From contig NZ_WQNH01000040.1 of the NCBI RefSeq assembly GCF_009812055.1, positions 1 to 46,275 of the forward strand: 46,275 bases of DNA. Direction: 5' to 3'. Made by a program: the position numbers and the translations under genes. Numbering within the stretch: the stretch's first letter is position 1; every line of letters begins with the position of its first letter. The notes under the pieces are model-generated. The model saw nothing but the letters and a program-made list of their open reading frames with translations, did not search any database and had not been told where the DNA came from. The DNA is from Chelativorans xinjiangensis (lineage in GTDB: Bacteria > Pseudomonadota > Alphaproteobacteria > Rhizobiales > Rhizobiaceae). This document shows, piece after piece, positions 4,510 through 32,543 of this stretch.

Positions 4510-5001
4510 TCACAGCGGCGGCCATCCCGACACCTTTCTGAGCAGCGCCAGGAACGTCGCGTGCTCCTCGTCCGACAGCATGGGAAGGGCGCGCCGGTCG
4601 GCTTCGTACATGAGCGGCGAGAAGGCTTCGAGCAGCTTGCGGCCCTCTTCCGTCAACCGCAGCTCGACCGAGCGGCGGTCCTGCGGCGGCACGAAACGCT
4701 CCACCAGCCCCCGCCCCTCCAGCGAGCGCACCAGCTTGGTCATGTTCGACCATTTTATCTTCAAGACATCGGCCATCGCGCCCTGGCGCACGCCGGGGTT
4801 TTCCGCGATGGCGAGAAGGATGGTGAACTCGCCGATCTTGACGTCAGCGCCCTTCAGTTCCGCGAACATGCGCTCGAACGCCGTGAGCTGGGCAATGCGC
4901 AGGAGGAACCCGGCGGAGCGCTCGAACTTGCCGAAGGAGAGGCCGGCCTTGCCCTCCTCGATCTCGGCCGCCCCGGCCGGCAGGGTCTGCGCGCCGCTCA
5001 T
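4510..5001 (-). CDS. MarR-family transcriptional regulator
   Basis: Winged-helix regulator of 163 residues. The DNA-binding part spans roughly residues 50-120, with the recognition region KIKWSNMTKLVRSLEGRGLV and the MarR wing signature PPQDRRSVELRLTEEG. MarR proteins of hydroxycinnamate operons (for example CouR) are repressors released by the CoA thioester product of the ligase. Here the gene overlaps the crotonase gene by ATGA, so it is co-expressed with it and faces away from the CoA ligase gene. A 12-base perfect palindrome at 5871 in the divergent promoter is the likely operator. The effector is inferred. Confidence 0.92.
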   Translation of the reverse strand: MSGAQTLPAGAAEIEEGKAGLSFGKFERSAGFLLRIAQLTAFERMFAELKGADVKIGEFTILLAIAENPGVRQGAMADVLKIKWSNMTKLVRSLEGRGLVERFVPPQDRRSVELRLTEEGRKLLEAFSPLMYEADRRALPMLSDEEHATFLALLRKVSGWPPL

Positions 5002-5786
5002 GGTCGGGCCTCCGTTCCGGTCGGGATGGCGAGGCGCTCCGCCTTCTTGTCGAGGAAGGCGCGCAGCCGCTCATGAGCCTCCGGCGTTGCCTGGGTGAGC
5101 GAGGCGATCATGGATTCGAAGAACAGCCCCTCGTCGTAGCCGCTGTCGTGGATGCGCTGCAGGGCATTGACGATGGCGTAGTTGGAAAGCGGCGCGTTCT
5201 TCGCCGCAAGCTTTGCCAACTCCTTCGCCCTGGCGAGCGCCCCGCCGGGCTCGGTCAGGTAGGTGACGATGCCGTAGCGCTCGGCCTCGTCGGCCGAAAG
5301 CACGCGGCCGGTCAGCATCATGTCGGTCATCCGCGCCACGCCCATCAGGCGGGCGACGTTCACCGAGCCGCCGCCGCCGACGAAGATGCCGCGCTGGCCC
5401 TCCGGCAGGGCGAAACGGGTGTTGGCGTCGGCAACCCGCACATGGCCGGCGGCCGCCAGCTCCAGCCCGCCGCCCACCACCGCGCCGTGGAGCGCGACGA
5501 AATAGGGGATGGCACCGCGCTGGATGCGGCTGAAGACGGCGTGCCAGCCGCGCGAGCCGGCGATGCCTTCCATGACCGACTTTTCAACCTGCTCGGAAAG
5601 GTCGAGCCCGGCGCAGAAGTGCTCTCCCCTCCCGGCGATCACGGCGGCCCTCGCTTCGCCCGCGGCGCGGTCGACCGCGGCGCCGAGATCGGCCAGCATG
5701 GCGTCGCTCATGGCGTTGCGCTTCTGTGGCCGACAGAGCGTCAGGACCGCGATGCCGTCGTCGATCTCGTAATTGACCAGCGCCAT
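4998..5786 (-). CDS. Crotonase/enoyl-CoA hydratase family protein, probable hydroxycinnamoyl-CoA hydratase(-lyase)
   Basis: Crotonase-fold enzyme of 262 residues. It has the oxyanion-hole motifs FCAGLDL (57-63) and GAVVGGGLEL (101-110) and an acidic catalytic residue in LPEGQRGI (Glu129). Next to a feruloyl-CoA synthase the expected job is hydration of the hydroxycinnamoyl-CoA double bond, possibly followed by retro-aldol release of the aromatic aldehyde and acetyl-CoA. It lacks the SEINWGIPPG segment I associate with Pseudomonas Ech/HCHL, so lyase activity is less certain than hydratase activity. The ATG at 5786 follows GGAGG by nine bases. An in-frame ATG at 5849 would add 21 unrelated residues. 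Confidence 0.88.
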   Translation of the reverse strand: MALVNYEIDDGIAVLTLCRPQKRNAMSDAMLADLGAAVDRAAGEARAAVIAGRGEHFCAGLDLSEQVEKSVMEGIAGSRGWHAVFSRIQRGAIPYFVALHGAVVGGGLELAAAGHVRVADANTRFALPEGQRGIFVGGGGSVNVARLMGVARMTDMMLTGRVLSADEAERYGIVTYLTEPGGALARAKELAKLAAKNAPLSNYAIVNALQRIHDSGYDEGLFFESMIASLTQATPEAHERLRAFLDKKAERLAIPTGTEARP

Positions 5787-5870
5787 TGGCCGGGAGCCTC
5801 CGTTCTCATGTCTCGGATCAGTGTTCTTGTTGAAATTGACACTGTTCACTTTTCAATTATTACTAATGAC

Positions 5871-6119: not shown

Positions 6120-7982
6120 ATGAACGAATCCGCGCCGCGGCAGCGCCCCTGGCTCGCGGCCCCGTTTCGTCCCGTGCGGTGCTGGGCGCCCGAGGTAGAG
6201 GTCCGGCACGGGCCGGGCGGCGTCCTTTACCTGGAGCAGAAGGCTCCCCTGCCGCCCTATCCCGAGCGCATCGCCGACATGCTGGTCCATTGGGCGGCCC
6301 GCGCGCCCGACCGGACGGTGCTGGCAGAGCGCGGCGCGGACGGGGACTGGCGCCGCATAAGCTACGCCGAGGCACTCGCCCATGCCCGGCGCCTCGGCCA
6401 GTATCTGATCGACCGCGGCCTCTCCGCTTCCGCCCCGCTGGCCATCCTTTCCGGCAACGACATCGAGCACGCGCTGCTCGGCCTCGCCGCCGTCTATGCC
6501 GGCATCCCCTATGCCGCCATCTCGCCCGCCTATTCGCTGGTCTCCACCGATTACACGCGGCTGCGCGGGACCTTCGAGACGATCCGCCCCGCCCTCGTCT
6601 TCGCCGCCGATGCCGAACGCTTCGGCCCCGCCATCGAGGCGGTGGCGCCGGGGATAAAGCGCCTCTTCACGAAGGGTGCGCGCAGCCCCGAGGAAGATTT
6701 TGCCGAGGCGCTGGCGACCGAGCCGGGTCCCGCGGTCGATGAGGCGTATCGCTCCGTCACCGGCGAGACGATCGCCAAGTTCCTCTTCACCTCGGGCTCC
6801 ACGGGAACGCCGAAGGCGGTCGTCAACACGAACCGCATGATCTCGTCCAACCAGATCATGAGCCGCGAGACCTTCGCCTATTTCAAGGACGAGCCGCCGC
6901 TGCTGCTCGACTGGGCGCCCTGGCACCACACGGCCGGCGGCAACAAGCTCTTCTACATGCCGATCTTCAACGGCGGCACGCTCCATATCGACGACGGCCG
7001 CCCCACGCAGGCCGACATCGGCAGGACGGTGCGCAACCTCAAGGAGGTTTCGCCGACCTGGTATTTCAACGTCCCCAAGGGCTTCGAGGCGCTGATCCCG
7101 CATCTTCAGGCCGACGCCGCCTTGCGCGAGAGCTTCTTCAAGGACCTGAAGCTCCTGTGGTACGCCGGCGCCGGCATGGCGCAGCACACCTGGGACGCGC
7201 TGGAGCGGCTTGCAGTCGAAACCACCGGCCGGCGCATCGTCATCGCCACCGGGCTCGGCGCCACCGAGACGGCACCGGCGGCGCTCATGTGCACCTGGCC
7301 GCAGGAGAAGGCCGGCAATGTCGGCCTGCCCTGCCCCGGCGTGTCGCTCAAGCTGGTGCCGCTCGACGGCAAGCTCGATGCGCGCGTGAAGGGGCCGAAC
7401 ATCACGCCGGGCTACTGGAACGCGCCGGCTTTGACGGCGGAAGCCTTCGACGAGGAGGGCTACTACCGCTTCGGCGATGCGCTGCGCTTTGCCGATCCGG
7501 ACGACATGCAGGCCGGCTTCTTCTTCGACGGCCGCACGGCGGAGAACTTCAAGCTCGACACCGGCACCTGGGTCAGCACCGGCGCCTTGCGCACCCGCTT
7601 CATCGACCATTTCGGCGCGGCGGTCCGCGATGTCGCCATCGCCGGCGCCGACCGCCCCTACCTCGCCGCCCTCGTCTTCCCCGACCTGGGCGTCCTCGCA
7701 AAGCTTGCCGCTCCCGGCACACCGAAGGAGGCGCGAAGCCTCGCCGCGGACGAGAACGTGCGCGCCCATCTGCGCGAGAAGCTGAAAGGCCTCGCCGCGA
7801 CCAGCACCGGCTCCTCGACGCTGATCCGCAGGATGATCCTCGTCGATCCCCCTCCCTCCATGGACAGGGGCGAGATGACCGACAAGGGCTCGATCAACCA
7901 GCGCGCCGTGCTGCGCAGCCGAAGCGAATGGGTGGAGGAGGTTTATTCGGACAGCGGGCGGGTGATTGGTATCGGGGAATAG
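6120..7982 (+). CDS. fcs: Feruloyl-CoA synthase
   Basis: ATP-dependent acyl-CoA ligase of the ANL superfamily (620 residues) that would convert ferulate or another hydroxycinnamate to its CoA ester through an acyl-adenylate. The AMP-binding P-loop FTSGSTGTPK is at 223-232, GLGATETAP at 378-386 and YYRFGDA at 448-454. The long N-terminal part (about 50 residues before the AMP-binding domain) and the WAPWHHTAGGN segment are as in feruloyl-CoA synthases. The ATG follows GGAGG by five bases. It is divergent from the crotonase-MarR-amidohydrolase-TRAP set, which supplies the next step and uptake. The exact hydroxycinnamate used cannot be read from sequence. Confidence 0.92.
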   Translation: MNESAPRQRPWLAAPFRPVRCWAPEVEVRHGPGGVLYLEQKAPLPPYPERIADMLVHWAARAPDRTVLAERGADGDWRRISYAEALAHARRLGQYLIDRGLSASAPLAILSGNDIEHALLGLAAVYAGIPYAAISPAYSLVSTDYTRLRGTFETIRPALVFAADAERFGPAIEAVAPGIKRLFTKGARSPEEDFAEALATEPGPAVDEAYRSVTGETIAKFLFTSGSTGTPKAVVNTNRMISSNQIMSRETFAYFKDEPPLLLDWAPWHHTAGGNKLFYMPIFNGGTLHIDDGRPTQADIGRTVRNLKEVSPTWYFNVPKGFEALIPHLQADAALRESFFKDLKLLWYAGAGMAQHTWDALERLAVETTGRRIVIATGLGATETAPAALMCTWPQEKAGNVGLPCPGVSLKLVPLDGKLDARVKGPNITPGYWNAPALTAEAFDEEGYYRFGDALRFADPDDMQAGFFFDGRTAENFKLDTGTWVSTGALRTRFIDHFGAAVRDVAIAGADRPYLAALVFPDLGVLAKLAAPGTPKEARSLAADENVRAHLREKLKGLAATSTGSSTLIRRMILVDPPPSMDRGEMTDKGSINQRAVLRSRSEWVEEVYSDSGRVIGIGE

Positions 7983-8243: not shown

Positions 8244-9512
8244 CTACCCCCGCGCCGCCTCCCGCAACGCGTCGACGAAATCGCGCTGCAGCGCCGTCGG
8301 CTGCCAGTCGCTGCGCGCGGTCATGCCGATGGGCCGCTCCGACTGCGGCAGCGCGAAGGGGATGACCTTGAGGAGGCCCGCCTTCTCGTCGTACTCGATC
8401 TGCTGGCGCGAAAGGATCGTCAGGCGGTCCGTCTGCATGAGGATGCCGCGCACGGCGATCAGCGAGCCGGTGACGACCGCCCCGTTCCACCGCCACTGCG
8501 GCGGGAAGTTTTCGGCAAGCGCGTTGAAGATCGCCCGCGTCGGCGTCCCCTGGCGCGGCAGCACCCAGGGGTAGCCGGCCAGGTCCTCGTAGGTGACCGT
8601 CCGTTTGTGCACCAGCGGATGGTCGGCGCGGCCGATGATCGACACCCCGTCGCTGAACAACGTCTCCTCCACCAGGCCCTTCCCCACGGCACCGCGCCGC
8701 AGGGCGCCGACGAGAAGGTCGATCTTGCCGATCAGGAGCGCGCGGATCAGGCTGTCATAGTCGCCGTCGAGGATCTCGACCGTCGCCCGCGGGCGCGAGG
8801 CGCACAGCCTGGCAATGGCGCTCGGGATGATCCTGGTGCGCACCAGCGGCAGCGTGCCGACGATGACGCGGCCGTCGAAGGTGCCTTCATATTCGCGCAC
8901 TTCCTCCAGCGCGCTCTCGAACTCCCTGAGGATCAGATGCGCATGGCTGGCGAGCGTCAAACCGGCCGGCGTCAGGTGGAGTGCGCGATAGGCGCCGTCG
9001 AACAGGGGAACCCCGCCGATGCGCTCCACCTGGCGCGCCGCGCGCTGCACCGAAGGCTCCGCCTGGCCGAGAAGCCGCGCCGCGCCCTGGAACGTGCCGG
9101 CCTCGGCGAAGGCGGCGAGCGCGCGCAGCTGGGTGCTCGTCGCATGCACCTCCAGGAGATCGACCGCCAGCCCCTTGCCGATGCGCGACTGCCGCGCAAG
9201 GCTCACGCTCGCCGCGCGCAGAAGCTCCAGGCTCCGCCGGGCGCGCCGGGCGAGGATGGCGCCGCGCTCGGTGGGAAAGACGCCGGCGCCCTGCCGGTCG
9301 AGCAGCGGGCCGCCGAACAGCTTCTCGAGCCGGGAGATCGCCTGCGAGGCGGCCGGCTGCGAGATGTGCACCTTCTCGGCGGCCCTCGAAAGGGAGGAGG
9401 AGGCGATTGCGGCGTCGAACAGCCGGACATGGCGCAGGTTGGGTTGCGTCTGCATGCCGTACTCTACGACAGCAGGCGTCTCATCGGAATGTGCCGAAGT
9501 CATCGACGACAT
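8244..9512 (-). CDS. LysR-family regulator with two N-terminal HTH domains
   Basis: At 422 residues this is about 120 longer than a normal LysR protein. The excess is a second LysR-type helix-turn-helix. The first spans about 27-84 (SRAAEKVHISQPAASQAISR, ending PTERG). The second spans about 127-185 (FQGAARLLGQAEPSVQRAAR, ending LTPAG). The ligand-binding domain starts near residue 213 (GRVIVGTLPLV). I chose the ATG at 9512 because GGAAGG lies six bases upstream; the frame further upstream only reads through a repeat. It follows galB-galC-galD on the same strand and is probably their regulator, with an aromatic or ring-cleavage acid as ligand (inferred). Confidence 0.9.
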   Translation of the reverse strand: MSSMTSAHSDETPAVVEYGMQTQPNLRHVRLFDAAIASSSLSRAAEKVHISQPAASQAISRLEKLFGGPLLDRQGAGVFPTERGAILARRARRSLELLRAASVSLARQSRIGKGLAVDLLEVHATSTQLRALAAFAEAGTFQGAARLLGQAEPSVQRAARQVERIGGVPLFDGAYRALHLTPAGLTLASHAHLILREFESALEEVREYEGTFDGRVIVGTLPLVRTRIIPSAIARLCASRPRATVEILDGDYDSLIRALLIGKIDLLVGALRRGAVGKGLVEETLFSDGVSIIGRADHPLVHKRTVTYEDLAGYPWVLPRQGTPTRAIFNALAENFPPQWRWNGAVVTGSLIAVRGILMQTDRLTILSRQQIEYDEKAGLLKVIPFALPQSERPIGMTARSDWQPTALQRDFVDALREAARG

Positions 9513-9551
9513 GCTATGCCTTCCGCTCGTAATCGGCAGAGAGAAAGCGCT

Positions 9552-9721
9552 CCGTCGCGCCCCCCTCTGTCCTGCCGGACATCTCCCCCACACGGGGGGA
9601 GATTGCGCCGGCCGCCTGCTCCGACCCCTATTCCGGGAGGGGGACTGGCGAAAGCCGGTGCGACGGCCAATCTCCCCCCGTGTGGGGGAGATGTCCCGCA
9701 GGACAGAGGGGGGCGCGACGG
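9552..9721. repeat. Family A palindromic repeat between galD and lysR
   Basis: Near-perfect inverted repeat with outer arms CCGTCGCGCCCCCCTCTGTC and the complement at 9702-9721. The compensating change of TTCGCGC to GTCGCGC on one side is matched by GCGCGAC on the other, so the pairing is conserved compared with other copies. Confidence 0.88.
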
Positions 9722-9773
9722 GGCGCCAAGTTTTCCGCCTGCCCGCTTTTCGCTCCCGCTCGCCCCACTCCAC

Positions 9774-10829
9774 TCAGGGAAAAACAACCCCATCCGCAAG
9801 CTTCCGCGCCGTCCTCAAGACGCCGGCCGATTGCACCTTCCCATCCTCGCCGAGATTGGCGATAACGGTGAACTCACCCGTCGGGTGTTCCACCGACATG
9901 GATTTCGTGCGCCCTTCCGGCACCTTCGCGTGCCGCGCCGCCGGCCCCTCGGGCAGCAGGCAGGCGGTGGCCACGCTGACGGCGCCGAGAACGCCGATAG
10001 CCGCATGGCAGCGATGCGGAATGAAGGTACGGGTGGAGATCGCCCCGCCATGGCGCGGCGGGCTCACCAGCGTCATCTTCGGCACGGACTTTTCCTTCAC
10101 GTCGCCGAGGTTCATCATCGGCCCCGCCTCGAGGCGGATGGCCTCGAGGCGGGCCTTCAGCGCCGCATTCGCCTCCAGTTCTGCCGGCGTCTCGTCGCCC
10201 CTGATGCCGAAGTCCGCCGCGTCGAGCACGACGCAGGGCATGCCGTTGTCGATCAGCGTGACCTCCACGCCGCCGACCGTGTCGACTTCCCTGCCCGACG
10301 GCAGAAGCGCCCCGCAGGTGGAGCCGGCGGTGTCCTCGAAGACGATGGGAATGGGCGCCGCCGCGCCGGGCACGCCGTCGATGCGCGCCTCGCCCATATA
10401 GTTGACCCTGCCGCCGGGTGTGGCGACCGTGGCGACTGCGACCTGGCCGGTGTTCTCCATAAAGATGCGCACCTCGGTCTCCTCCGACCGCGCCTTCACC
10501 AGCCCGCGCTCGATGGCGAAGGGCCCGACGGCGGCCAGGATGTTGCCGCAGTTCTGGCTGTCGGTGACGATCGCCTGGTCGACGAAGACCTGCAGGAACA
10601 GGTAGTCCACATCGACGCCTTCCCGCTCCGACCGCCGAACCACGGCGACCTTGGACGTCAGCGGATCGGCTCCGCCGAGGCCGTCGATCTGGCGCGGGTC
10701 GGGCGAGCCCATGATGCGCAGGAGCATGGCGTCGCGCATCTTCGCATCCTGCGGCAGGTCGGCGGCGAGGAAATAGCCGCCCTTCGACGTGCCGCCCCGC
10801 ATCCACATGGCGCGAATACCCTCAGACAT
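9774..10829 (-). CDS. galD: 4-oxalomesaconate tautomerase (PrpF/GalD family)
   Basis: PrpF-type isomerase of the diaminopimelate-epimerase fold (351 residues) with the N-terminal signature [12 protein letters not shown] (9-20) and a Cys in [15 protein letters not shown] near residue 94. GalD-type members convert the keto form of 4-oxalomesaconate to the enol form after gallate ring opening. The assignment as GalD rather than a methylaconitate isomerase rests on its operon: it overlaps the aldolase gene by eight bases, and that gene overlaps galB by one. No methylcitrate genes are near. Confidence 0.88.
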
Positions 10830-11493
10830 ATTTGAGACCCTTCTCCTTCAGCCGTTCGCGCATGCCGTAGATATCGAGGCCGAGCTCGCCGGCGGCGAGC
10901 CGCTTGCGCTTGGCCTCCTCGTTCGCCATGCGCGCCTCGGCAGCCTTCAGGACATCGCCGGCGGCCTCGCGGCGGACGACGCAAACGCCGTCGTCGTCGG
11001 CGACGATCACATCACCCGGATTGACGAGAGCGCCGGCGCAGACCACCGGCACGTTGACCGAGCCCGGCGTCTCCTTGACGGTGCCCTGCGCGCAAACGTG
11101 GTGCGACCAGATGGGGAAGCCCATCTTCGTCAGATCGGCGACATCGCGCACGCCAGCGTCGATCACCAGCCCCCTGCAGCCGCGCGCCATCGCAGAGGTG
11201 GCGAGAAGGTCTCCGAAATAGCCGGCATCCGATGGCGAGGTGGGCGCCAGCACGAGGATATCCCCGTCCTTGAGCTGCTCGATGGCGACATGCACCATCC
11301 AGTTGTCGCCCGGAGGCGCGGAGATCGTCACCGCCGAGCCGGCAATGCGCGCACCGGGATAGATCGGCCGCATATAGGAGGCGAGGAGCCCGCTGCGCCC
11401 TTGCGCCTCGTGCACGGTCGCCACGCCGCATTCGGCCAGCCCGGCGATGACTTCCGGGTCGGCCCGCTCGATATTCTCAACGACGATGCCCAT
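10822..11493 (-). CDS. galC: 4-carboxy-4-hydroxy-2-oxoadipate aldolase/oxaloacetate decarboxylase (GalC/LigK family)
   Basis: RraA-fold class II aldolase of 223 residues. It splits 4-carboxy-4-hydroxy-2-oxoadipate into pyruvate and oxaloacetate, the last step of the gallate and protocatechuate 4,5-cleavage routes. Visible family residues are GDLLATSA (94-101) and the DAGVRD motif (112-117) with the substrate arginine and metal-binding aspartate. The ATG at 11493 overlaps the galB stop as TGATG, and earlier in-frame starts run into galB. Distinguishing it from other RraA-like aldolases depends on the galB and galD neighbours. Confidence 0.9.
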
Positions 11494-12224
11494 CACAACT
11501 GATCCACGGTTCTCGGGAAGATCGACTGGAACGCCTCGGCGTATCTGGCGGCGCGCCCGCCCGCCTGCCCGCCGGAGTTGCGGCGGAACTGGTTGGCCCG
11601 GTTCTCCGCGACGTTCGTGTAGTAATCCCACAGGTGCTGCTGGCCCTCCATGCACTCGATGGCCGCGCGCTTCTTGTCCCATACCTCGGTGATGTCGAGG
11701 ATGGTGTCGGGCTTCCAGCCGCATTGCTCCGTCTGATGCGGCTCGAAGAGGTAGAGCTGCGGCGCCCCCAGCACCTTCTCCCCCGGCTTGTGCCCCCAGG
11801 CCTGCGCGATCATGCGGCATTCGAGCGCCATCCGCGTCGCATAGGGATGGTCGGTGTTGTACGGGTCGTCGAGCGAGTGCGAGAGCATGAAGGCCGGCTG
11901 CACCCGGCGGATCACGTCCACCAGCCGGTCCTTTCCCTGGCGGTCCATCTCCAGCGGATAGTCGCCGAGGTCGAAGAATTCGATCTCGTGTGCGCCAAGC
12001 GCCTTCGCCGCGTTCTCCGCCTCCTTGCGCCGCGCTGCCTTGACGCCTTCCAGGCTCGCCCCTTCATCCTTCCAAAGCTTGGCGCTCTCCCCGCGCTCGC
12101 CATAGGAGAGGCAGACGACGGTGACGTCGAAACCTTGCTCCTGATGCAGCGCGATGGCGCCGCCGCAGCGCCAGACGAAGTCGGCCGAATGGGCGCTGAT
12201 CACCAAAACTGTCTTTTCGCTCAT
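11493..12224 (-). CDS. galB: 4-oxalomesaconate hydratase (GalB, PIG-L family)
   Basis: Zinc hydrolase-fold protein of the PIG-L/LmbE family, 243 residues. The usual AHPDD motif is here AHSADF (11-16), a variant I associate with GalB, and the later [13 protein letters not shown] stretch supplies further metal ligands. GalB hydrates 4-oxalomesaconate to 4-carboxy-4-hydroxy-2-oxoadipate, which the next gene product cleaves. It is the first gene of galB-galC-galD, with GGAG 7-8 bases before the ATG. The sequence-unrelated LigJ does the same job in Sphingobium. A deacetylase role is the main alternative, but the operon argues against it. Confidence 0.9.
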
Positions 12225-12260
12225 GGCTTGGCTCCTAATTTTACAGTTACGATTTACCGC

Positions 12261-12330
12261 CGCGCCCCTTCGCGCGCCCCCCTGTCCTGAGCTTGTCGAA
12301 GGGCCGGACAGAGGGGGCGTGAAGGGGCGC
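12261..12330. repeat. Short family A derivative with a GTCGAAGGG module
   Basis: About 70-base inverted repeat: CGCCCCTTCGCGCGCCCC on the left pairs with GGGGGCGTGAAGGGGCG on the right. The centre carries TCCTGAGCTTGTCGAAGGG, a module also found as an insert in the repeat at 35402. It lies between galB and the dioxygenase gene. Confidence 0.75.
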
Positions 12331-12339
12331 TGACCATTG

Positions 12340-13308
12340 CTAGGCTTTGTCCGTGCTTGCCTTCACCGGCGGCGTGCCGTGGGTGTGGAACGATTCGATC
12401 GTCTTGAGCCCCCAGGCCTGCCCCTTCCTGCGCTCCGCCTCGGTCCAGGTGACGGGCTGCCAGTCCGGCCTGAGGATCAGCCGCGCCCCGGCATTGGCAA
12501 CCTCCACGCGGTTGCCCGCCGGCTCGTACACATAGAGGAAGAAGGTGCCCTGGATGGCGTGCTTGTGCGGCCCGGTCTCGATGAAGACGCCGTTCTCCAG
12601 GAAGATGTCGGCCGCGCGCAGCACGTCCTCGCGGCTGTCGACCGCATAGGTGACGTGGTGGAAGCGGCCGGACATGCCGGAATGGTCTTCGGTATAGGCG
12701 ATGTCGTAGCTCTTGTTGTTGACCGTGAACCAGCAGCCGCCGAGCCGCCCGTTGTCGAGCTGGATCTGCTCGGTCACGCGGCTGCCCAGCGCCGTGCACA
12801 TGAAGTCGCGGATGACGGCTATGTCCCGGGCGAGAAGGTTGAGATGGTCGATCCGCCGCACGCACACGCCCCGCCCATGGTAGCGCTGCGCCAGGTTCTT
12901 GAGCGCCGGGCGCTCCTCCGGCGGCGCCTCGTAGGGCTTCGTGTCGTAGTAAAGTTCGAAGATGTGGCCGTCCGGATCGGTGAAGCGGTAGGCCCTCCCG
13001 TGCCCCAGATCGCCCTCCACCCAGCCGATCCCCCAGCCCATCGCCTCGATCACGGCGACCCGCCGCTCTAGCGCCTCGGGCGAAGAGGTGCGGTAGGCGA
13101 CGTGGCCGACGCCGGTGTTGTCGGACCGGGTGAGCTTGAGCGTGTGGAACTCGTAGTCGTCCCAGCCGCGCAGATAGGCCGACGCATCGTCGCGGCCGCT
13201 CTCGGTCAGCCCGTAGACGTTGACGAAGAAGTCGAGGCTCTCCTCGAACTTGTCCGTCAGCACCTCCACATGGCCAAGATGGGCAACGTCGAAACAGGGT
13301 TCGGTCAT
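12340..13308 (-). CDS. Two-domain extradiol ring-cleavage dioxygenase (catechol 2,3-dioxygenase-like, VOC superfamily)
   Basis: Type I extradiol dioxygenase of 322 residues made of two VOC modules. The C-terminal module holds the iron ligands His155 (RRIDHLNLLARD), a His in FHHVTYAV (217-218) and Glu269 (GNRVEV). It also has the second-sphere His250 and Tyr261 expected of XylE-like enzymes. The N-terminal module keeps DPDGHIFELYY (111-121). It is the only ring-opening enzyme in the block, just upstream of galBCD, so the likely substrate is gallate, 3-O-methylgallate or a related catechol carboxylate. That is inference, because gallate cleavage is normally done by unrelated LigAB/DesB-type enzymes. 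The ATG at 13308 follows GGGAG. Confidence 0.88.
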   Translation of the reverse strand: MTEPCFDVAHLGHVEVLTDKFEESLDFFVNVYGLTESGRDDASAYLRGWDDYEFHTLKLTRSDNTGVGHVAYRTSSPEALERRVAVIEAMGWGIGWVEGDLGHGRAYRFTDPDGHIFELYYDTKPYEAPPEERPALKNLAQRYHGRGVCVRRIDHLNLLARDIAVIRDFMCTALGSRVTEQIQLDNGRLGGCWFTVNNKSYDIAYTEDHSGMSGRFHHVTYAVDSREDVLRAADIFLENGVFIETGPHKHAIQGTFFLYVYEPAGNRVEVANAGARLILRPDWQPVTWTEAERRKGQAWGLKTIESFHTHGTPPVKASTDKA

Positions 13309-13364
13309 TTCATCATCTCCCTTTACTTCATTCGGAGAAACATACGTGCCGCCATGTCGCTCCC

Positions 13365-14669
13365 CTATCCGATCATCGTGTTCGGCAGGAACAGTGCGAT
13401 CTGCGGGAAAAGGACGAGCAGGATCACCGCGATCAGCATCACGAACCAGAACGGCATGACGCCGGCGAAGATGTCGCGCAGCGGGATATTCGGCGCCACC
13501 GACTTGACGATGAAGACGTTGACGCCCACCGGCGGGCTGATCAGCCCCATCTCCAGCGTCAGCACCACCAGCACGCCGAACCAGATGGGATCGAAGCCGA
13601 GCCCGACAACGATCGGGAAGAAGATCGGCATCGTCAAAACCAGCATGGCGAAGCCTTCGAGGAAGAGGCCGAGCACGAGATAGCATAGAAGGATGAGCGC
13701 CAGGATGCCGGTCGGGCCGATATCGAGGCCGGTCAAAAGCGTTGCCACCTCATGCGGGATCCGGCTCAAGGCGAGGAACGGGTTGAGCAGGTGCGCGGAG
13801 ATCAGGATCAGCATGACCGTCGCCGTAGTAGTGATGGAATCGCGCACCGCATGGTAGAACGACTTCATCGTCAGCTGGCGCGCCACGACGCTGAAGAGCG
13901 TCACCAGCCCGGCCCCCACCGCCGCCGCCTCCACCGGCGAGAAGAAGCCGACATAGATGCCGCCGATGGTCAAAAGCACGATACCGATGATCGGGACGGC
14001 GCCCAGGAGGGCGGCCGACTTCTCCCGCAAGCTCCTGTGCGGGCCGCTCGGCCCGTAGCTGGGCCGCAGGATGGACAGCGCCGTGATGAGCAGGATGAAC
14101 AGGAGCAACAGCATGATGCCCGGCAAAACGCCGGCGAGGAACAGGCGGCCGATCGATTGCTGCGTCAGGATGGCGTAGACCACGAAGCCGGTGGACGGCG
14201 GAATGAGGATGCCGAGCGTGCCGCCGGCCGCCACGGCACCCGTCGAAAGCCTGGGGTCGTAGTTGAACCGCTCCATCTCGGCGAGCGACACGCGGCCCAT
14301 GGTGAGCGCTGAGGCGACCGAGGAGCCGCACAGCGCGGCAAATCCGCCGCAGCCGACGATGGTGGCCGAGGCAAGCCCGCCCCTGATCGAGCCGATGATC
14401 GCGTAGGCCGCGTCGTAGAGCCGCCGGCTCATGCCGCTGGCGGTCGCCACGTTGCCCATGAGGATGAAGAGCGGCACCACGATCAGCTCGGCACTGGAGG
14501 CCAGCGTGAAGGTCTCGCTGGCGAGGAGGTTGAACGCGTTGGCCGGGCTCGACAGAACCGACACGCCGGCAAGCCCGACGACGAACATGGCGAAGGCGAC
14601 GGGAATGCGGAGCGCCAGAAGCGCGAACAGCGCGAGGATGCCGATCAGGCCGACCAGGCCCGGGCTCAA
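13365..14669 (-). CDS. TRAP transporter large permease subunit (DctM family)
   Basis: Second TRAP channel subunit, 434 residues and about 12 membrane segments. It has LALRIPVAFAM near the start, CGSSVASALTMGRVSLAEM, GGTLGILIPPSTGFVVYA and the C-terminal SPPVGVNVFIVKSVAP typical of DctM. The start is TTG at 14669: GGAGG lies five bases upstream and the codon overlaps the small-subunit stop as TTGA. The gene lies between the second TRAP binding-protein/small-subunit genes and the dioxygenase gene, all on one strand. Import of a methoxylated or hydroxylated benzoate is likely from context. Confidence 0.93.
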   Translation of the reverse strand: MSPGLVGLIGILALFALLALRIPVAFAMFVVGLAGVSVLSSPANAFNLLASETFTLASSAELIVVPLFILMGNVATASGMSRRLYDAAYAIIGSIRGGLASATIVGCGGFAALCGSSVASALTMGRVSLAEMERFNYDPRLSTGAVAAGGTLGILIPPSTGFVVYAILTQQSIGRLFLAGVLPGIMLLLLFILLITALSILRPSYGPSGPHRSLREKSAALLGAVPIIGIVLLTIGGIYVGFFSPVEAAAVGAGLVTLFSVVARQLTMKSFYHAVRDSITTTATVMLILISAHLLNPFLALSRIPHEVATLLTGLDIGPTGILALILLCYLVLGLFLEGFAMLVLTMPIFFPIVVGLGFDPIWFGVLVVLTLEMGLISPPVGVNVFIVKSVAPNIPLRDIFAGVMPFWFVMLIAVILLVLFPQIALFLPNTMIG

Positions 14670-15181
14670 AGCACCTCCCTCCCCTGTTCTCCGCCGGCCT
14701 CAAGGCCCGCCAGAACGATCTCGGCGGCCCGCAGCGCCATCGTCAGCGCGGTGAGAATGGAAAAGCCGGCCAGCGCCCACTGGAACCACGCCTTGGGCAG
14801 GTTGATGATGTTGGTGGACAGGTTGAGCATCAGCGACAGCTGGGCCGACTGGATGATCTTCCAGGCAATGGCCGCGAAGATCGCAGCACCGAGCAGCGCG
14901 ACGGCGATGTCGATCGCGCGGTTCAGCCGCGGCGGAAAACTGTTCTCGAAGATGTCGACGGCGATGTGCCCCTTGATGCGGTCGCAATAGGCCATGCCGC
15001 CGAAGACGATGATCACCATCGACATCTGGCCGATGTCCTGCGCCCCGCGCAGCGGCGCCCCGAAATAGCGGCCGATCACATCGACGAGCACGACACAGGT
15101 GACGAGCACCAGCGCCGCGCTGCCGGCCATGCTGGACAGGCCGATCAGCCTGTCCACGTTTGTCCGCAAGAAATCCAGCAT
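14666..15181 (-). CDS. TRAP transporter small permease subunit (DctQ family)
   Basis: Four-helix small TRAP subunit of 171 residues, with DVIGRYFGAPLRGAQDI after the first helix and DRIKGHIAVDIF in the middle, both typical of DctQ. The open frame extends to 15286 and has an ATG at 15217, but that stretch lies in a RIME-like palindrome shared by other rhizobial intergenic regions. I therefore take the ATG at 15181 (MLDFLRTNVDR) as the native start. Its ribosome site is weak, so coupling or the repeat itself may influence expression. It overlaps the large-subunit gene by four bases. Confidence 0.88.
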   Translation of the reverse strand: MLDFLRTNVDRLIGLSSMAGSAALVLVTCVVLVDVIGRYFGAPLRGAQDIGQMSMVIIVFGGMAYCDRIKGHIAVDIFENSFPPRLNRAIDIAVALLGAAIFAAIAWKIIQSAQLSLMLNLSTNIINLPKAWFQWALAGFSILTALTMALRAAEIVLAGLEAGGEQGREVL

Positions 15182-15209
15182 CGAACCCGCTCGCTGTAGA
15201 TTATTGGAA

Positions 15210-15363
15210 CGACGCATCGTGCTTTCCGAAAATCGATCCCGATTTTCGGGCCGATGCGCTGGAGCAATTCCAGGAAAAGTGGACACCGGTTTTCCGTCCG
15301 GAATTGCGTAAAATCAAAAGCTTAGATCGTTTCAGCGTTTCCGTGAAACACTGAAACGATCTA
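15210..15363. repeat. RIME-like rhizobial intergenic palindrome between dctP and dctQ
   Basis: Mosaic of two hairpins. CGAAAATCG-ATC-CGATTTTCG is flanked by GCATCG and CGATGC. The second part holds CGATGCGCTGGAGCAATTCC and pairs of the GAAAAGTGG/CCGGTTTTCC type, and ends in AGATCGTTTCAGCG...TGAAACGATCT. This matches, from memory, the RIME-type elements of Rhizobium and Mesorhizobium intergenic DNA. It fills the gap between binding-protein and permease genes. Confidence 0.82.
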
Positions 15364-15367
15364 GCCG

Positions 15368-16363
15368 TCAGTTGCCGGTCATGGCCGCCAGCACGTCCTC
15401 CGCCCCCATGTCTTCGAGCAGTTTCTCGCGCAGGGGGTCGGCGATCTCGGTGAAGGCGGCGACCTCCTCCTCCGTCAGGTCGATCACCGTGTTGTCCGGG
15501 TTGTCGCGCAGCGCCAGCAGCGTGCGCTCGGCCAGGGCGTTCCATCCCTCCTCGCCCTTCTGCGAGAGGCCGCGCCCGGTGTGCTTGTCGAGGATGGCGC
15601 GATGCTCCTCGCTCAGGCCCTCATAGCGCGCCTCGTTCATGACCAGGTAGAACATGATGTGGCCGAGCGGCGCGCCGACCGAATAGGAATTCGCCACCTC
15701 GTCGAGCTTGAAGTCGTTGACGGCGCTGGCGCCTGTCACGATGCCGTCGATCAGCCCCGTCTGCAGCGCATTGTACATCTCGCCGGCGGGCATCTGCACG
15801 GGCGTCGCGCCGAACGCCTCGACAAGCGCGCCCGGCACCGAGCCGGAGACGCGGATGCGCAGGCCTTTCAGATCCTCGGGCGAGCGTATCTCGCGGTCGC
15901 GCATGATGAAGATGCTGGGCTCGGAGACCCACAGCGCGAGCGGCCGCGTGCCGGGAAACTCGTCGGACAGATGCTCGTCGAGGGCGTTCCACAGCATGTC
16001 GTAGCCGGTCACGCCCTCGGGGATGGCGCCGGGCATCTCGACGATCATCGACTTGGGAAACTGCGAGGACGTATAGCCCGACAGCCCCCAGGTGATGTCG
16101 GCGACGCCCTGGACGGCGCGCACATACTGCTCCATCGGGCCGGCGCCCAATTCGCCGCCGGGATGGACCTGGATCGTCAGGTCGCCGCCGCTGTCGGCCT
16201 CCACGCCCTTCGACAACGGCTCCACCACCGAGGCGGTGACCACATGCGCGGGCGCCACGAAATGCGCCAGCGACAGCGTCTCGGCGGGCGCCATTGCCGG
16301 CGCCGCGATCATGCTTGACGCCAGCATCAGCAAACCGGCGGACTTATTGAAGAAAGCTTTCAT
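15368..16363 (-). CDS. TRAP transporter substrate-binding protein (DctP family)
   Basis: Periplasmic binding protein of 331 residues. A clear signal peptide (MKAFFNKSAGLLMLASSM) ends near AMAPAE, residue 28. DctP features include VHPGGELGAG near residue 68, LRIRVSGSVPGALVEAFGATP and LQTGLIDGIVTG. The ATG at 16363 follows GGAGGAG. It is the first gene of the second TRAP set and is probably promoter-proximal. Neighbouring demethylase, dioxygenase and gal genes suggest an aromatic acid such as syringate, vanillate or gallate as ligand, which is inference. Confidence 0.92.
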   Translation of the reverse strand: MKAFFNKSAGLLMLASSMIAAPAMAPAETLSLAHFVAPAHVVTASVVEPLSKGVEADSGGDLTIQVHPGGELGAGPMEQYVRAVQGVADITWGLSGYTSSQFPKSMIVEMPGAIPEGVTGYDMLWNALDEHLSDEFPGTRPLALWVSEPSIFIMRDREIRSPEDLKGLRIRVSGSVPGALVEAFGATPVQMPAGEMYNALQTGLIDGIVTGASAVNDFKLDEVANSYSVGAPLGHIMFYLVMNEARYEGLSEEHRAILDKHTGRGLSQKGEEGWNALAERTLLALRDNPDNTVIDLTEEEVAAFTEIADPLREKLLEDMGAEDVLAAMTGN

Positions 16364-16521
16364 CTCATTCTCCTCCCTCATGCCAAAAGGACCGCCGGCG
16401 CCGATACCGGCACGGGCCCGATGACGAACGCAATGGTTAGGCCCGGCCCCGGCTCCAGGCCAATTCGAAGTCGGTTCGCGGCATAAGTTTTTGCTATAAT
16501 TGTGTTTGAAGGGATGGCCTT

Positions 16522-16709
16522 GGCGCCCCTTCACGCCCCCCCCTCTGTCCTGCCGGACATCTCCCCCACACGGGGGGAGATCAGCCGTCATGCTCGTTTT
16601 CGCCAATCGCCAGCCTTGCAGAAGAGGCGCCGGAGCAAGCGGCCAGGGTAATCTCCCCCCGTGTGGGGGAGATGTCCGGCAGGACAGAGGGGGGCGCGAA
16701 GGGGCGCCG
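16522..16709. repeat. Family A palindromic repeat upstream of the second TRAP operon
   Basis: Full-size copy. GGCGCCCCTTCACGCCCCCC on the left pairs with the complement ending at 16709, with the inner CTCCCCCACACGGGGGGAG and its partner. It occupies much of the 527-base gap 16364-16890. The remainder (16364-16521 and 16710-16890) shows no gene and no promoter I would defend, apart from an AT-rich stretch near 16480-16505. Confidence 0.88.
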
Positions 16710-16890
16710 TCATCTCCATTGGCCGAACGCCCAAGGCGATGTTCATGGCATGCTCTCCCACCGATGCATGGCATCTCACAGACCCGATTGCCTGAATGAT
16801 CGGCCTATGCCGGAACATCGAAACACCACCAGCGATCGATGCCAAGCAAACGTTAGCAGTGAGCCCTCGCGGAAGCCCCTGCCCCGCACC

Positions 16891-18300
16891 TCAGCTCATC
16901 GGCCCGCCTTCCGCGCGCCAGCCCTTGCCGACATACACCTTGCGCGCAGCCTCGGCATAGGGAACGGGGCTGACGATGGCGCGGATCTCCGTCCGCGTAT
17001 GAGGCTCGACGGCGGGCTTCCTCGTACCGCCCCCTTCCTCGCCCCAGACGAAGGTGACCTCCGTGCCCGGCTCGGCATATTCGGTGTCGAGGATGGCCAG
17101 CGTCAGCATCCTGCGCTCGTTCGAACTGTAGCCGATCCAGGTGGAGATACCGATCGTCTTTCCGCCGGCGGTCACCTTGTCGAAGGGGTGCATGGAATAG
17201 ACGGCCGACGGGAACTCCATGAACTTGGCGCGGCCTTCGCCCTTCTCGAATTGCGAGGCGATGGCGCGCATCACGTCCTCGTTCTCCAGCGCCAGCGTCA
17301 CCTTCTTGCGGTGCGGCCCCCCGGCCTTCTTCTCCAGCGCCTCGCGGCCGATGAAGTCGTGGTCGAACTTCACGACATGGCCGTAGCCGAGGTCCCAGGG
17401 GGTCAGGTAATAGTCCTCGATATCGTCGGAGGCGAAGCTGCCGCCGATCGAGGCCTTGGCCTCGTAGCCGTCGTCGGGCAGCCACTTGCGGTAGGGCTTC
17501 ATCGCCTCGCCCGTGTAGATCGCCGGCAGCGGCGACGGGATCCAGCCCGATTCCAGCGTGTTGGACGAGTAGGCCCGCCCGCCCACCTGCAAGAGGCCGA
17601 ACTCCTCTCCCGCCGCGACGATCGCCTCGCGCACCGCCTCCCCGTCCGCCCACGGCCCGAAAAACTCGAACCCGGGCTGGCCGGCCATGCCATGGCGCAG
17701 CGCCCGCACCTTCCTGCCGGCGATCTCGACCGGCGCCATATTGAAGAATTTGACGTCCGGCGCCGGCCCTCCCAGCACCTTCTCGATGACCTTCATCGCA
17801 TTCGGCCCCTGCACCTGGAAGCGGTAGGACTTGCGGTTGAAGGGGTCGGGGCGCGCGGCCGAGCGCTCGTCGAGCTCGGTCTTCACGTCGTAGCCGCCGG
17901 TCTCGGCGTTAAAGCGCACCCAGTTGAGCGCCGGAATGCGGCCCACCAGGTTGAACGTGTTCTCGGCCAGGTAGAACAGGATGACATCGCCGATCACATA
18001 GCCGTCGGGACTGCATGGGATGAACTGCTTGGCCTTGTCGACGGCGAAATTGGCGAAGCTGTTGATGCCGAGACGGGAGATGAGCTTGAGCGCGTCCGGC
18101 CCTTCCACGGCAAGGTCGGCCATGTGGTAGGACTGGTTGAAGAGCACGCAGGTGTTCTGCCACGCCGCCTGCTCGTCGCGCCAGTTGGTGAACTCGGCCG
18201 GCACGCCGGGATAGACGTTGGGTCCCGTTATCTGATTGCGGAGGAGCTCGACGGGATTGCGGCAATCCTGGAGCAGATCCTCGAGGCTACGTTTCGACAT
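16891..18300 (-). CDS. Tetrahydrofolate-dependent aromatic O-demethylase, LigM/DesA-like (GcvT family)
   Basis: Aminomethyltransferase-fold protein of 469 residues. Throughout its length it resembles the vanillate/3-O-methylgallate and syringate O-demethylases LigM and DesA of Sphingobium: NVYPGVPAEFTNWR (28-41), FNQSYHMADL (54-63), LVGRIPALNW (118-127), SNTLESGWIPSPLPAIYTG and FVWGEEGGGTRKPAVEPH. These enzymes pass the methyl group of a methoxy-aromatic acid to tetrahydrofolate. Tyr30, His59 and Arg121 fall where I recall active-site residues of LigM. GGAGGAAGG precedes the ATG. A palindrome shared with the IclR promoter lies 33 bases upstream. Whether vanillate, syringate or 3-O-methylgallate is preferred is open; a dimethylglycine-type role is less likely. 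Confidence 0.87.
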   Translation of the reverse strand: MSKRSLEDLLQDCRNPVELLRNQITGPNVYPGVPAEFTNWRDEQAAWQNTCVLFNQSYHMADLAVEGPDALKLISRLGINSFANFAVDKAKQFIPCSPDGYVIGDVILFYLAENTFNLVGRIPALNWVRFNAETGGYDVKTELDERSAARPDPFNRKSYRFQVQGPNAMKVIEKVLGGPAPDVKFFNMAPVEIAGRKVRALRHGMAGQPGFEFFGPWADGEAVREAIVAAGEEFGLLQVGGRAYSSNTLESGWIPSPLPAIYTGEAMKPYRKWLPDDGYEAKASIGGSFASDDIEDYYLTPWDLGYGHVVKFDHDFIGREALEKKAGGPHRKKVTLALENEDVMRAIASQFEKGEGRAKFMEFPSAVYSMHPFDKVTAGGKTIGISTWIGYSSNERRMLTLAILDTEYAEPGTEVTFVWGEEGGGTRKPAVEPHTRTEIRAIVSPVPYAEAARKVYVGKGWRAEGGPMS

Positions 18301-18348: not shown

Positions 18349-18401
18349 TACATATATATGAAAACAGCCGAGCCGCCTCCTTGTCAAGACCTGCACCCCT
18401 C

Positions 18402-18550
18402 GTCACCACCCCCCTCCGCCTGCCGGCACCTCCCCACAAGGGGGAGGAAAGCCGTCGCCAGCGTTGCAGAAGAAGCGCCGGAGCAAGCGGCCAGCCTTCC
18501 TCCCCCCTTGTGGGGGGAGGTGCCGGCAGGCGGAAGGGGGTGGTGGCGAC
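18402..18550. repeat. Family B palindromic repeat
   Basis: The arms contain CTCCGCCTGCCGGCACCTCC and its complement, with outer GTCACCACCCC pairing GGGGTGGTGGCGAC. It lies between the IclR gene's 3' end and the demethylase promoter. Confidence 0.87.
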
Positions 18551-18599
18551 GGGAGCCATCATCTCCCTTTGCCGACTCCCACCTGGAAAACAGACCGCC

Positions 18600-19352
18600 C
18601 TACGCCGTCTCCCGCCCCCACCCGTCCATCTCATCCACAATCCGGACGATCTCGTCGGCGATCCTTCTCTCGGTGAGATGGTCGAAGCGCGGCGAGGGGA
18701 TCGCCACGCTGAGGCTGTATCGGCCGTCGAGCGCCACGCCGATGCCCATGACGCCGATCGTATGCTCCTCGCGCGATAGGGCGTATCCGCGGTCCGCGGT
18801 GCGCTTCAGGTCCTCCCGCAGGCTTTCCTCGTCGACCAGCGTATAGGGCGTGAAGCGCGCGCACGGCATGGCCGCCAGGCATTCGTCGAGTTGATCCGGC
18901 GGGAGTGCCGCCAGGAGCGCCTTGCCGGAGGCGAAGCTGTGCAGCGGCACGCGCATGCCCTTTTGCGGCGTGAACCGCAGCGGGTGGGCGGAAAGCTCCA
19001 CATCCACCACCTCCACGTCGTTGCCGCGCCGGATGAAGAGGGACGAGGTCTCGCCCGTCGAGCGGGTGACGGCGCGCAGGATCGCCGCCCGCCGCTCGGC
19101 AAGCGTCGGCGGGGCGCCGGAGGCAAGCCGCGCGAGCGCCGGGCCGATCACATAGGCCCGATCAGTGCCGGGCAAAAGCCAGTGCCGGCTGACCAGTGTC
19201 GTCAAAAGGTAGGAAAGGCTGCTTTCGGGAATGCCGGTGGCACGGCTGATCTCGCGCGCCGTCGCCGATCCTGAGCGCGAGACCTGCTCGACGATGTCCA
19301 TGGCGCGGGCGGCGGACTTGACAGAGGCTGGCTGTTTGTCTTTCATCATCAT
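18600..19352 (-). CDS. IclR-family transcriptional regulator
   Basis: IclR protein of 250 residues: an N-terminal winged helix at about 12-70 (AREISRATGIPESSLSYLLTTL) and a C-terminal effector domain with LHSFASGKALLAALP (136-150) and SREEHTIGVMGIGVAL. IclR members often control aromatic-acid catabolism. It lies upstream of the demethylase gene on the same strand and shares an operator-like TTCA-N6-TGAA sequence with it, so it is a likely regulator of demethylation and of itself. The start region is ATGATGATG; the first is used, and any of the three is possible. The ribosome site is weak. Confidence 0.92.
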   Translation of the reverse strand: MMMKDKQPASVKSAARAMDIVEQVSRSGSATAREISRATGIPESSLSYLLTTLVSRHWLLPGTDRAYVIGPALARLASGAPPTLAERRAAILRAVTRSTGETSSLFIRRGNDVEVVDVELSAHPLRFTPQKGMRVPLHSFASGKALLAALPPDQLDECLAAMPCARFTPYTLVDEESLREDLKRTADRGYALSREEHTIGVMGIGVALDGRYSLSVAIPSPRFDHLTERRIADEIVRIVDEMDGWGRETA

Positions 19353-19372: not shown

Positions 19373-19456
19373 TTCGGAATCCCGTCAATTCGGCATGTCG
19401 GGGGGCGAGGCCGGGAGGACGGGCAAAGGAGAATGCGTTCGCCGCACCCCACGGGC

Positions 19457-19611
19457 GTTAGCAAGCCCGGAACGGAGGTGACGCTCACCTGGGGCGAGGA
19501 AGGTGGCGGCACCCCGCGCCCGGTGGTCGAGAGGCATGTCCAGACGGAGATCCGCGCGACGGTGGCGTGTGCCCGTATTCGGCGGTGGCGCGGGAGGCGT
19601 ATCGGGTTTGA
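19457..19611 (+). pseudogene. Remnant of a second LigM/DesA-like O-demethylase (C-terminal fragment, frameshifted)
   Basis: Translation from about 19460 gives KPGTEVTLTWGEEGGGTPRP, then VVERHVQTEIRATVA. This parallels EPGTEVTFVWGEEGGGTRKP, AVEPHTRTEIRAIVS near the end of the intact demethylase (16891-18300). The homology then continues in another frame from 19570 as CPYSAVAREAYRV and stops at 19609-19611, matching PYAEAARKVY in the intact protein. So this is the last 45-50 codons of a related gene with one frameshift. Nothing upstream matches the missing 400 residues. It lies on the opposite strand to the intact gene, directly beyond the IclR start. The rest of the 19353-19740 gap is a family A half-repeat near 19676-19702 and nothing else I recognise. 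Confidence 0.8.
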
Positions 19612-23879: not shown

Positions 23880-24062
23880 GCTCCCCTTTGCGCCCCCCTC
23901 TGTCCTGCCGGACATCTCCCCCACATGGGGGGAGATTGGCCGTCGCATATGGTTTCGCCAACCACCAGCGTTGCAGGAAAGGCGCCGGAGCAAGCGGCCA
24001 GCCAATCTCCCCCCGTGTGGGGGAGATGTCCGGCAGGACAGAGGGGGGCGCGAAGGGGAGCC
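23880..24062. repeat. Family A palindromic repeat in the divergent dppB/regulator gap
   Basis: Full copy: CTCCCCTTTGCGCCCCCCTC on the left pairs with the complement ending near 24060. The inner loop carries CATATG and a GCCGGAGCAAGCGGCCAG segment seen in other copies. The 23783-24209 gap also holds a short AAGGGGTT/AACCCCTT inverted repeat and AT-rich DNA near 24180-24210, but no gene. Confidence 0.88.
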
Positions 24063-32253: not shown

Positions 32254-32309
32254 CTCCCGCCTGCCTTTCGTTCCGCTGTTGGGTGGAGGCACTTGGTTGG
32301 AAATGATGG

Positions 32310-32490
32310 CACACGTCGCGTCGACCCCCCTCCGCCTGCCGGCACCTCCCCCACAAGGGGGGAGGAAGCCGTCGCCGCTACCTTCGCCAATCGCTAACGT
32401 CGCAGAACAGGCGCCGGAGCGTGCGGCCGGCTTTCCTCCCCCCTTGTGGGGGAGGTGCCGGCAGGCGGAGGGGGGTGGGCGCGACGTGTG
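32310..32490. repeat. Family B palindromic repeat between dctP and dctQ
   Basis: Outer arms CACACGTCGCG and CGCGACGTGTG (32310 and 32490 ends) enclose CTCCGCCTGCCGGCACCTCC with its complement. It is the best-preserved family B copy in the window. It fills most of the gap between the binding-protein gene and the small permease gene. Confidence 0.9.
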
Positions 32491-32543
32491 CCGTCATCGC
32501 CCTTTGGCCGACCCGACCTAAAGCACCCACGCCAGGACCCACC

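Follow-up and report, generated by a model that had tools for sequence, protein, structure and literature searches.

The gene block and its ring-cleavage enzyme

The subject of this analysis is a ring-cleavage dioxygenase of the VOC family encoded in a 46,275 bp stretch of Chelativorans xinjiangensis DNA (contig NZ_WQNH01000040.1 of assembly GCF_009812055.1, here called the window). Its gene lies in a minus-strand block (8244-18300) with the order desA, dctPQM, VOC dioxygenase, galB, galC, galD and a LysR-type regulator. A sequence-only reading had proposed a methoxy-aromatic/gallate pathway in which the VOC enzyme stands in for a LigAB/DesB-type dioxygenase, an interpretation that, as a whole, is partly supported. 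We favour an assignment of the VOC enzyme as a recurring, non-homologous type I extradiol gallate dioxygenase that would take the place of GalA/DesB, and give this a probability of about two in three. The gene set itself is confirmed: family models and structure matches identify galB, galC, galD, a LigM/DesA-like O-demethylase gene and a TRAP transporter around the dioxygenase gene in one block.

16891..18300, minus strand: DesA-type syringate O-demethylase, GCV_T family (NF047633, 877 bits; cut-off 800)
15368..16363, minus strand: TRAP substrate-binding protein DctP (PF03480, NF037995)
14666..15217, minus strand: probable TRAP small permease DctQ, an open frame between DctP and DctM, named by position alone
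13365..14669, minus strand: TRAP large permease DctM (TIGR00786, 301 bits; cut-off 268)
12340..13308, minus strand: two-domain VOC (type I) extradiol dioxygenase of 322 aa, proposed gallate dioxygenase (Pfam, fold, alignment)
11493..12224, minus strand: GalB, 4-oxalomesaconate (2-keto-4-carboxy-3-hexenedioate, KCH) hydratase, PIG-L family (5cgz, 4-oxalmesaconate hydratase, E 1.3e-97; PF02585)
10822..11493, minus strand: GalC, 4-carboxy-4-hydroxy-2-oxoadipate aldolase (TIGR02798, 382 bits; cut-off 304.5; 3noj, E 1.3e-88)
9774..10829, minus strand: GalD, 4-oxalomesaconate (OMA) tautomerase (NF033377, 543 bits; cut-off 440; 6p3j, (4E)-oxalomesaconate isomerase, E 1.6e-161)
8244..9455, minus strand: LysR-type regulator, candidate GalR (PF00126 in two stretches, PF03466; PcaQ model 192 bits, under the cut-off of 304)

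The DesA protein also exceeds the cut-off of the LigM model NF047885 (643 bits; cut-off 580) and matches the vanillate/3-O-methylgallate O-demethylase structures 5tl4 and 5x1i at E 3e-160. The three gal pathway genes occur together, and their layout with the dioxygenase gene is operon-like, as galB shares a few bases with galC, and galC with galD, and just 115 bases separate the VOC gene from galB. The claim of a single ring-cleavage gene holds for the block but not for the genome, where LigAB genes are found on another contig.

Fold and active site

Dioxygenases that open gallate, 3-O-methylgallate (3MGA) or, at the 4,5-position, protocatechuate are described as LigB-type in passages of PMC3962378, PMC4250580 and PMC8091115. 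GalA of P. putida and DesB of Sphingobium SYK-6, which feed GalD, GalB and GalC from the same place in the pathway (PMC12314914, in part), are type II enzymes of the LigB superfamily (portions of PMC4250580 and PMC3962378), whereas the enzyme in the window belongs to the VOC family. Among the papers listed by literature searches confined to open-access work, no report of a type I or VOC gallate dioxygenase was found.

Pfam finds the Glyoxalase domain in two stretches of the VOC protein; at E≤0.001 only Glyoxalase and dioxygenase-like N-terminal models match, and the LigB domain PF02900 is not found. Its AlphaFold model has a mean confidence (predicted local distance difference test) of 84, with residues 298-307 of low confidence. 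The nearest folds retrieved by Foldseek are 3lm4, 7q2a, AphC, LapB, XylE and homoprotocatechuate 2,3-dioxygenase, so that the protein has the two-domain type I extradiol fold. With XylE, LapB and AphC, which are type I catechol 2,3-dioxygenases, it also has a 2-His-1-Glu site in common. By alignment with XylE, whose metal-binding residues we take to be the corresponding ones, the predicted 2-His-1-carboxylate site consists of His155, His218 and Glu269; the ligands proposed earlier are thereby borne out, with His218, the second of an HH pair, preferred over His217. All three residues are identical in 104 of 104 aligned sequences. The closeness to homoprotocatechuate 2,3-dioxygenase (HPCD/HpaD), an enzyme acting on an acidic catechol, is one of fold: the HpaD model gives 200 bits against a cut-off of 321, and a Thr stands where the HpaD-like protein of locus L107 has an Arg, presumably the carboxylate-binding Arg243. 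No second copy or relative of the VOC protein was found in the window's genome at E≤0.001.

The second-sphere histidine expected of a type I enzyme is missing, and Tyr201 is found instead. This position is Tyr in all 99 sequences of at least 60% identity (98 distinct, that of the window included) and His in all five outgroup sequences; alignments show His likewise in AphC, LapB and XylE. The residue of XylE aligned with Tyr201 is His199, which we take to be the catalytic base. The top match by sequence in the PDB, 9wgj, is named a catechol 1,2-dioxygenase and has a Tyr at the position aligned with Tyr201; a literature search found no paper on the origin of this entry.

Co-occurrence with gal genes in the order

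The distribution of the enzyme was followed in 397 genomes, an even draw of the order, which are not independent cases; tallies by genus and family correct for kinship in part. A VOC ortholog was defined by at least 65% identity, a limit set at a gap in the list of full-length matches, where no identity lies between 50% and 65%, and one genome with the gene in two pieces (G188) was counted as having it. GalB was accepted at E≤1e-50, a LigI-like hydrolase at E≤1e-20 and a strong LigB-type gene at 175 bits or more with PF02900. Since the thresholds were fixed and the genomes are drafts, a gene may have been overlooked, or be too unlike the query, in single genomes.

VOC orthologs are present in 59 genomes and GalB in 82, with both in 56 (Fisher p 5e-44). 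GalB thus occurs in 56 of 59 genomes with the VOC gene versus 26 of 338 without it, and lies at most 12 kb from it in 34 of the 56. Among GalB genomes, the trend is the opposite for strong LigB-type genes (12/56 with VOC versus 18/26 without; Fisher p 5e-5), and this contrast is also seen when majority states are compared by genus (42 genera, p 0.0046) or family (23 families, p 0.023). A PF02900 match is absent altogether from 19 of the 56 genomes with VOC and GalB. The idea of a non-homologous replacement gains from these 19 genomes and from the travelling of the VOC gene with galBCD, but loses from the LigAB pair in the window's own genome.

The products of ring opening provide a further argument. 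According to part of PMC8091115, 3-O-methylgallate yields 4-carboxy-2-hydroxy-6-methoxy-6-oxohexa-2,4-dienoate (CHMOD) and protocatechuate 4-carboxy-2-hydroxymuconate-6-semialdehyde (CHMS), and gallate alone of the three acids is drawn as giving OMA directly. Fourteen of the 59 VOC genomes lack a LigI-like gene, and nine have neither a LigI-like nor a strong LigB-type gene; all nine possess GalB, and four of them (G095, G159, G345, G369) are without any PF02900 match. In these nine genomes ring opening should itself yield OMA, which fits gallate and favours the direct production of OMA suggested earlier.

DesA/LigM-like genes at E≤1e-80 were found in 10 of 59 VOC genomes versus 4 of 338 others (at most four candidates per genome were scored). 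The proposed link to methoxy-aromatics is therefore not a general one, and the gene set may more broadly serve to break down gallate of other origin. The same count rules out DesA/LigM as an obligatory partner of the VOC gene.

Neighbourhoods in relatives

Related loci were compared for the best 80 of 442 stretches that encode a relative, taken from one pattern scan; these are not independent cases, and the gene tables for plasmids are incomplete. At least one gal gene is present in 60 of the 80 loci, all three in 51, and in 50 the VOC gene lies on the same strand as, and within 4.5 kb of, at least two of them; the arrangement is thus far beyond chance. A DesA/LigM-like gene was seen in 41 loci.

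Comparison of individual neighbourhoods, as the sequence-only reading had advised, agrees with this pairing in Agrobacterium, Pantoea and Nonomuraea. The order galB-VOC-galC-galD is followed by a tannase-family gene on plasmid pAt of a walnut isolate of Agrobacterium tumefaciens (without an annotated demethylase in the stretch) and by a carboxylesterase gene on an A. vitis plasmid; it occurs in plain form, again without an annotated demethylase in the stretches, on plasmids of Rhizobium Q54 and Thioclava. The Pantoea piersonii plasmid p527820 carries galBCD, a LysR gene and an aromatic acid/H+ carrier beside the VOC gene, with no porin in the stretch; most of this gene content is like that of the P. 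putida gal set as given in part of PMC12314914, with VOC for GalA. Even in the actinomycete Nonomuraea, where the VOC protein is 61% identical, the order is galB-galC-galD-VOC. Looser cases are A. tumefaciens H25/79 (galC-galD and VOC, galB not in the stretch), Methylobacterium (DUF1932-VOC; an aldolase gene is found at a distance of 7 kb), and Pantoea sp. At-9b and Chimaeribacter (VOC in a stretch that lacks gal genes).

VOC genes of this clade were also noted on large enterobacterial plasmids (Pantoea and Chimaeribacter; L095, L098, L099 and L100), with galBCD in two of the four stretches, an apparent case of horizontal transfer. Other recurring neighbours, counted in 82 clustered sources, are a DUF1932 dehydrogenase-like protein (46), a weakly MetF-like protein (28) and PurU (10). 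The first, which resembles 6-phosphogluconate dehydrogenase, accompanies the gal and VOC genes very consistently (for example L041 13463-14326). A methionine-synthase-like protein (PRK06520) is encoded at L074 8799-9995 and in seven further sources, and a similar label appears on a Pantoea plasmid. The MetE-like protein beside VOC was considered as a DmtS-like demethylase, which was ruled out since DmtS is VanA-like (PMC8091115, in part).

Opposing evidence and alternative explanations

Several observations weigh against a gallate dioxygenase. In 22 of the 56 genomes that have both, no GalB lies 12 kb or less from the VOC gene, and no gal gene was seen in 20 of the 80 loci, just four of which are shorter than 18.5 kb. 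A PF02900 match is also absent from 5 of the 26 GalB genomes without VOC, so GalB is no proof of the ring-opening partner. LigB occurs in 12 of the 80 VOC loci, and the two enzyme types often coexist, as in Roseomonas, where LigB, hydrolase and VOC genes adjoin, together with VanA/VanB-type genes. There, LigB-type and VOC-type ring-cleavage enzymes are encoded side by side on one strand (L101 7420-9972). Tannase-family genes are found in 23 of 59 VOC genomes, but none of the 39 matches listed is within 15 kb of the VOC gene, the nearest on one contig being about 40 kb away (G367); tannase as a general partner was ruled out on these figures.

Two further points of this kind concern the enzyme itself. 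Its score with the catechol 2,3-dioxygenase model TIGR03211 is 324.9 bits, just above the cut-off of 320.2, and because that cut-off is narrowly passed, the names in the annotation fit: most annotated plasmid rows call the clade member "catechol 2,3-dioxygenase" or "VOC family protein" (one has bphC, some are unlabelled). Also, with Tyr replacing the catalytic His, the reaction might be a different one; in BphC, His194 is called essential (a passage of PMC3962378). The score would suit an ordinary catechol or alkylcatechol 2,3-dioxygenase that lies in the gal operon by chance, as would the solved structures among the nearest folds, which include AphC with 4-ethylcatechol and LapB with 4-methylcatechol besides XylE. 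We nevertheless regard this explanation as highly unlikely, in view of the co-occurrence with GalB in 56 of 59 genomes and of the Tyr in 99 of 99 sequences where XylE, LapB and AphC have His. The neighbours also differ, with gal genes in place of lower meta-cleavage genes. In Thermus, a 45% identical relative with His belongs to a cluster that includes meta-cleavage genes and a 4-hydroxyphenylacetate hydroxylase-like gene; a change of function beyond the Tyr clade is therefore probable. Four usable queries from that cluster (hydrolase, aldolase, acetaldehyde dehydrogenase and HpaB-like) matched only the Thermus cluster itself among the compared loci and the window (E≤1e-15). The catechol 2,3-dioxygenase of Bacillus ligniniphilus was set aside as a functional guide, being inactive on protocatechuate and pyrogallol (PMC8671467, in part).

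A LigI-like hydrolase is present in 45 of the 59 VOC genomes, an adverse point because it also fits a route through 2-pyrone-4,6-dicarboxylate (PDC), a branch that should then be common. The VOC enzyme might accordingly be a protocatechuate 4,5-dioxygenase, with the DUF1932 dehydrogenase-like protein in the part of LigC and LigI carrying the product via PDC to OMA. The DUF1932 protein, present in 50 of 59 VOC genomes and in more than half of the clustered sources (46/82), would fit such a scheme. We consider it very unlikely, since PcaH, found in 59 of 59 VOC genomes (57 above the cut-off), provides an ortho route for protocatechuate, 14 of these genomes have no LigI-like gene, and the window's own genome has no DUF1932 match at E≤1e-25 (LigC itself was not searched for). 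The earlier statement that LigC and LigI are absent is correct for LigI in the block, but a LigI-like hydrolase (57% identical to the query from L022) is encoded on contig C75.

A further objection is the LigAB pair in the window's genome. It makes up half of what the sequence-only reading held against itself, namely a LigAB/DesB-type enzyme elsewhere that is required for growth on gallate. On the 3.8 kb contig (C96), LigA forms a fusion with an alpha/beta hydrolase and LigB comes next; a YciI-like frame and a LysR gene, both recognised by eye, follow after it. In a close relative, which was compared along with a second one, frames for a transporter, a hydrolase and MetF-like and PurU-like proteins come after the LigAB set (mostly by eye). 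LigAB might therefore be the main gallate enzyme of the strain and VOC accessory or in a different role; the MetF-like and PurU-like frames would suit this, and LigAB and LigAB2 of Novosphingobium open gallate (PMC8091115, in part). We think this highly improbable. No gal gene was recognised on the 3.8 kb contig or, by eye, among the frames listed in 19 kb around LigAB in the relative, 19 genomes with VOC and GalB have no PF02900 match, and the fusion of LigA to a hydrolase suggests an ester product. The fused frame, next to LigB, was noted at L001 349-1476 and L046 8304-9353, possibly a pair for ring opening and ester hydrolysis.

The LigAB-hydrolase genes resemble the syringate route of Pseudomonas NGC7, in which 3MGA is opened by the two-subunit dioxygenase MgaAB, presumably of LigB type, with the hydrolase MgaC, and which likewise ends in GalD, GalB and GalC; no VOC enzyme is described for the route in the portion of PMC12314914 concerned. 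On this likeness we would assign 3MGA to LigAB and gallate to the VOC enzyme. The alternative is that the VOC enzyme itself opens 3MGA, the DesA product, to the methyl ester CHMOD, which would be hydrolysed, or cyclised to PDC, before entering the GalBCD route. DesA in the same block, DesA/LigM-like genes in 41 of 80 loci, the LigI-like hydrolase in 45 of 59 VOC genomes and the acceptance of 3MGA by P. putida GalA (PMC12481942, in part) all agree with this, yet we judge it unlikely. The VOC-gal block of the window is without a methylesterase, the hydrolase accompanying LigA instead in a manner that recalls MgaAB and MgaC (PMC12314914, in part). No demethylase is annotated in the Agrobacterium, Rhizobium Q54 and Thioclava stretches, and in nine VOC genomes neither LigI-like nor strong LigB-type genes were found.

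A proposed route for gallate

In the gallate dioxygenase assignment that we prefer, DesA of the window would convert syringate to 3-O-methylgallate and a LigM on another contig would convert this to gallate. A second DesA/LigM copy, on contig C1 between GntR-type and MetF-like frames (by eye), is above the LigM and under the DesA cut-off, and a third, on contig C45, is under both; with DesA in the window and LigM on C1, the genome has candidates for both steps. We infer gallate as the substrate of the VOC enzyme, its two adjacent hydroxyls being bound by the metal at His155, His218 and Glu269, and OMA as the product, formed in one step by opening of the ring next to the third hydroxyl. GalD, GalB and GalC would then convert OMA to pyruvate and oxaloacetate. 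As to Tyr201, we consider it slightly better than an even bet that the widespread VOC clade represents a second, non-homologous class of gallate dioxygenases with Tyr at the position of the catalytic His, possibly since the third hydroxyl of gallate shares in proton transfer.

If this is true, searches for LigB alone have missed the breakdown of gallate and syringate in many Hyphomicrobiales, other alphaproteobacteria and at least one actinomycete; the homologue survey in the relevant part of PMC12314914, for instance, names desB, ligAB and galA for the ring-opening step. A pathway gap would be filled, the name of a large protein group (with relatives encoded in 442 stretches of a single scan) would be corrected, and a new enzyme for the conversion of lignin and tannin would become available. 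The role of the catalytic His in extradiol cleavage could then be tested in a natural variant.

Flanking genes and minor observations

Three further genes lie close to the block:

18600..19352, minus strand: IclR-type regulator, upstream of desA (PF01614, PF09339)
6120..7982, plus strand: acyl-CoA synthetase, possible feeder gene (NF009232, 722 bits, under the cut-off of 777)
4998..5849, minus strand: enoyl-CoA hydratase family protein, possible feeder gene (PF00378)

The acyl-CoA synthetase is possibly a feruloyl-CoA synthetase. The LysR regulators of gal clusters in the window (8244-9455, HTH_1) and at L100 6095-7321 have two separate helix-turn-helix matches. At 19409-19567 (plus strand) the window contains a remnant similar to the C-terminal part of a LigM/DesA-type demethylase, and an intact gene occupies that position in two close relatives (L002 and L003). 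Finally, copies of a repeat, up to about 180-200 bases long and about 78-85% alike, are dispersed over the window at 18400-18584, 2064-2243, 32299-32519, 16607-16733 and 23965-24048.

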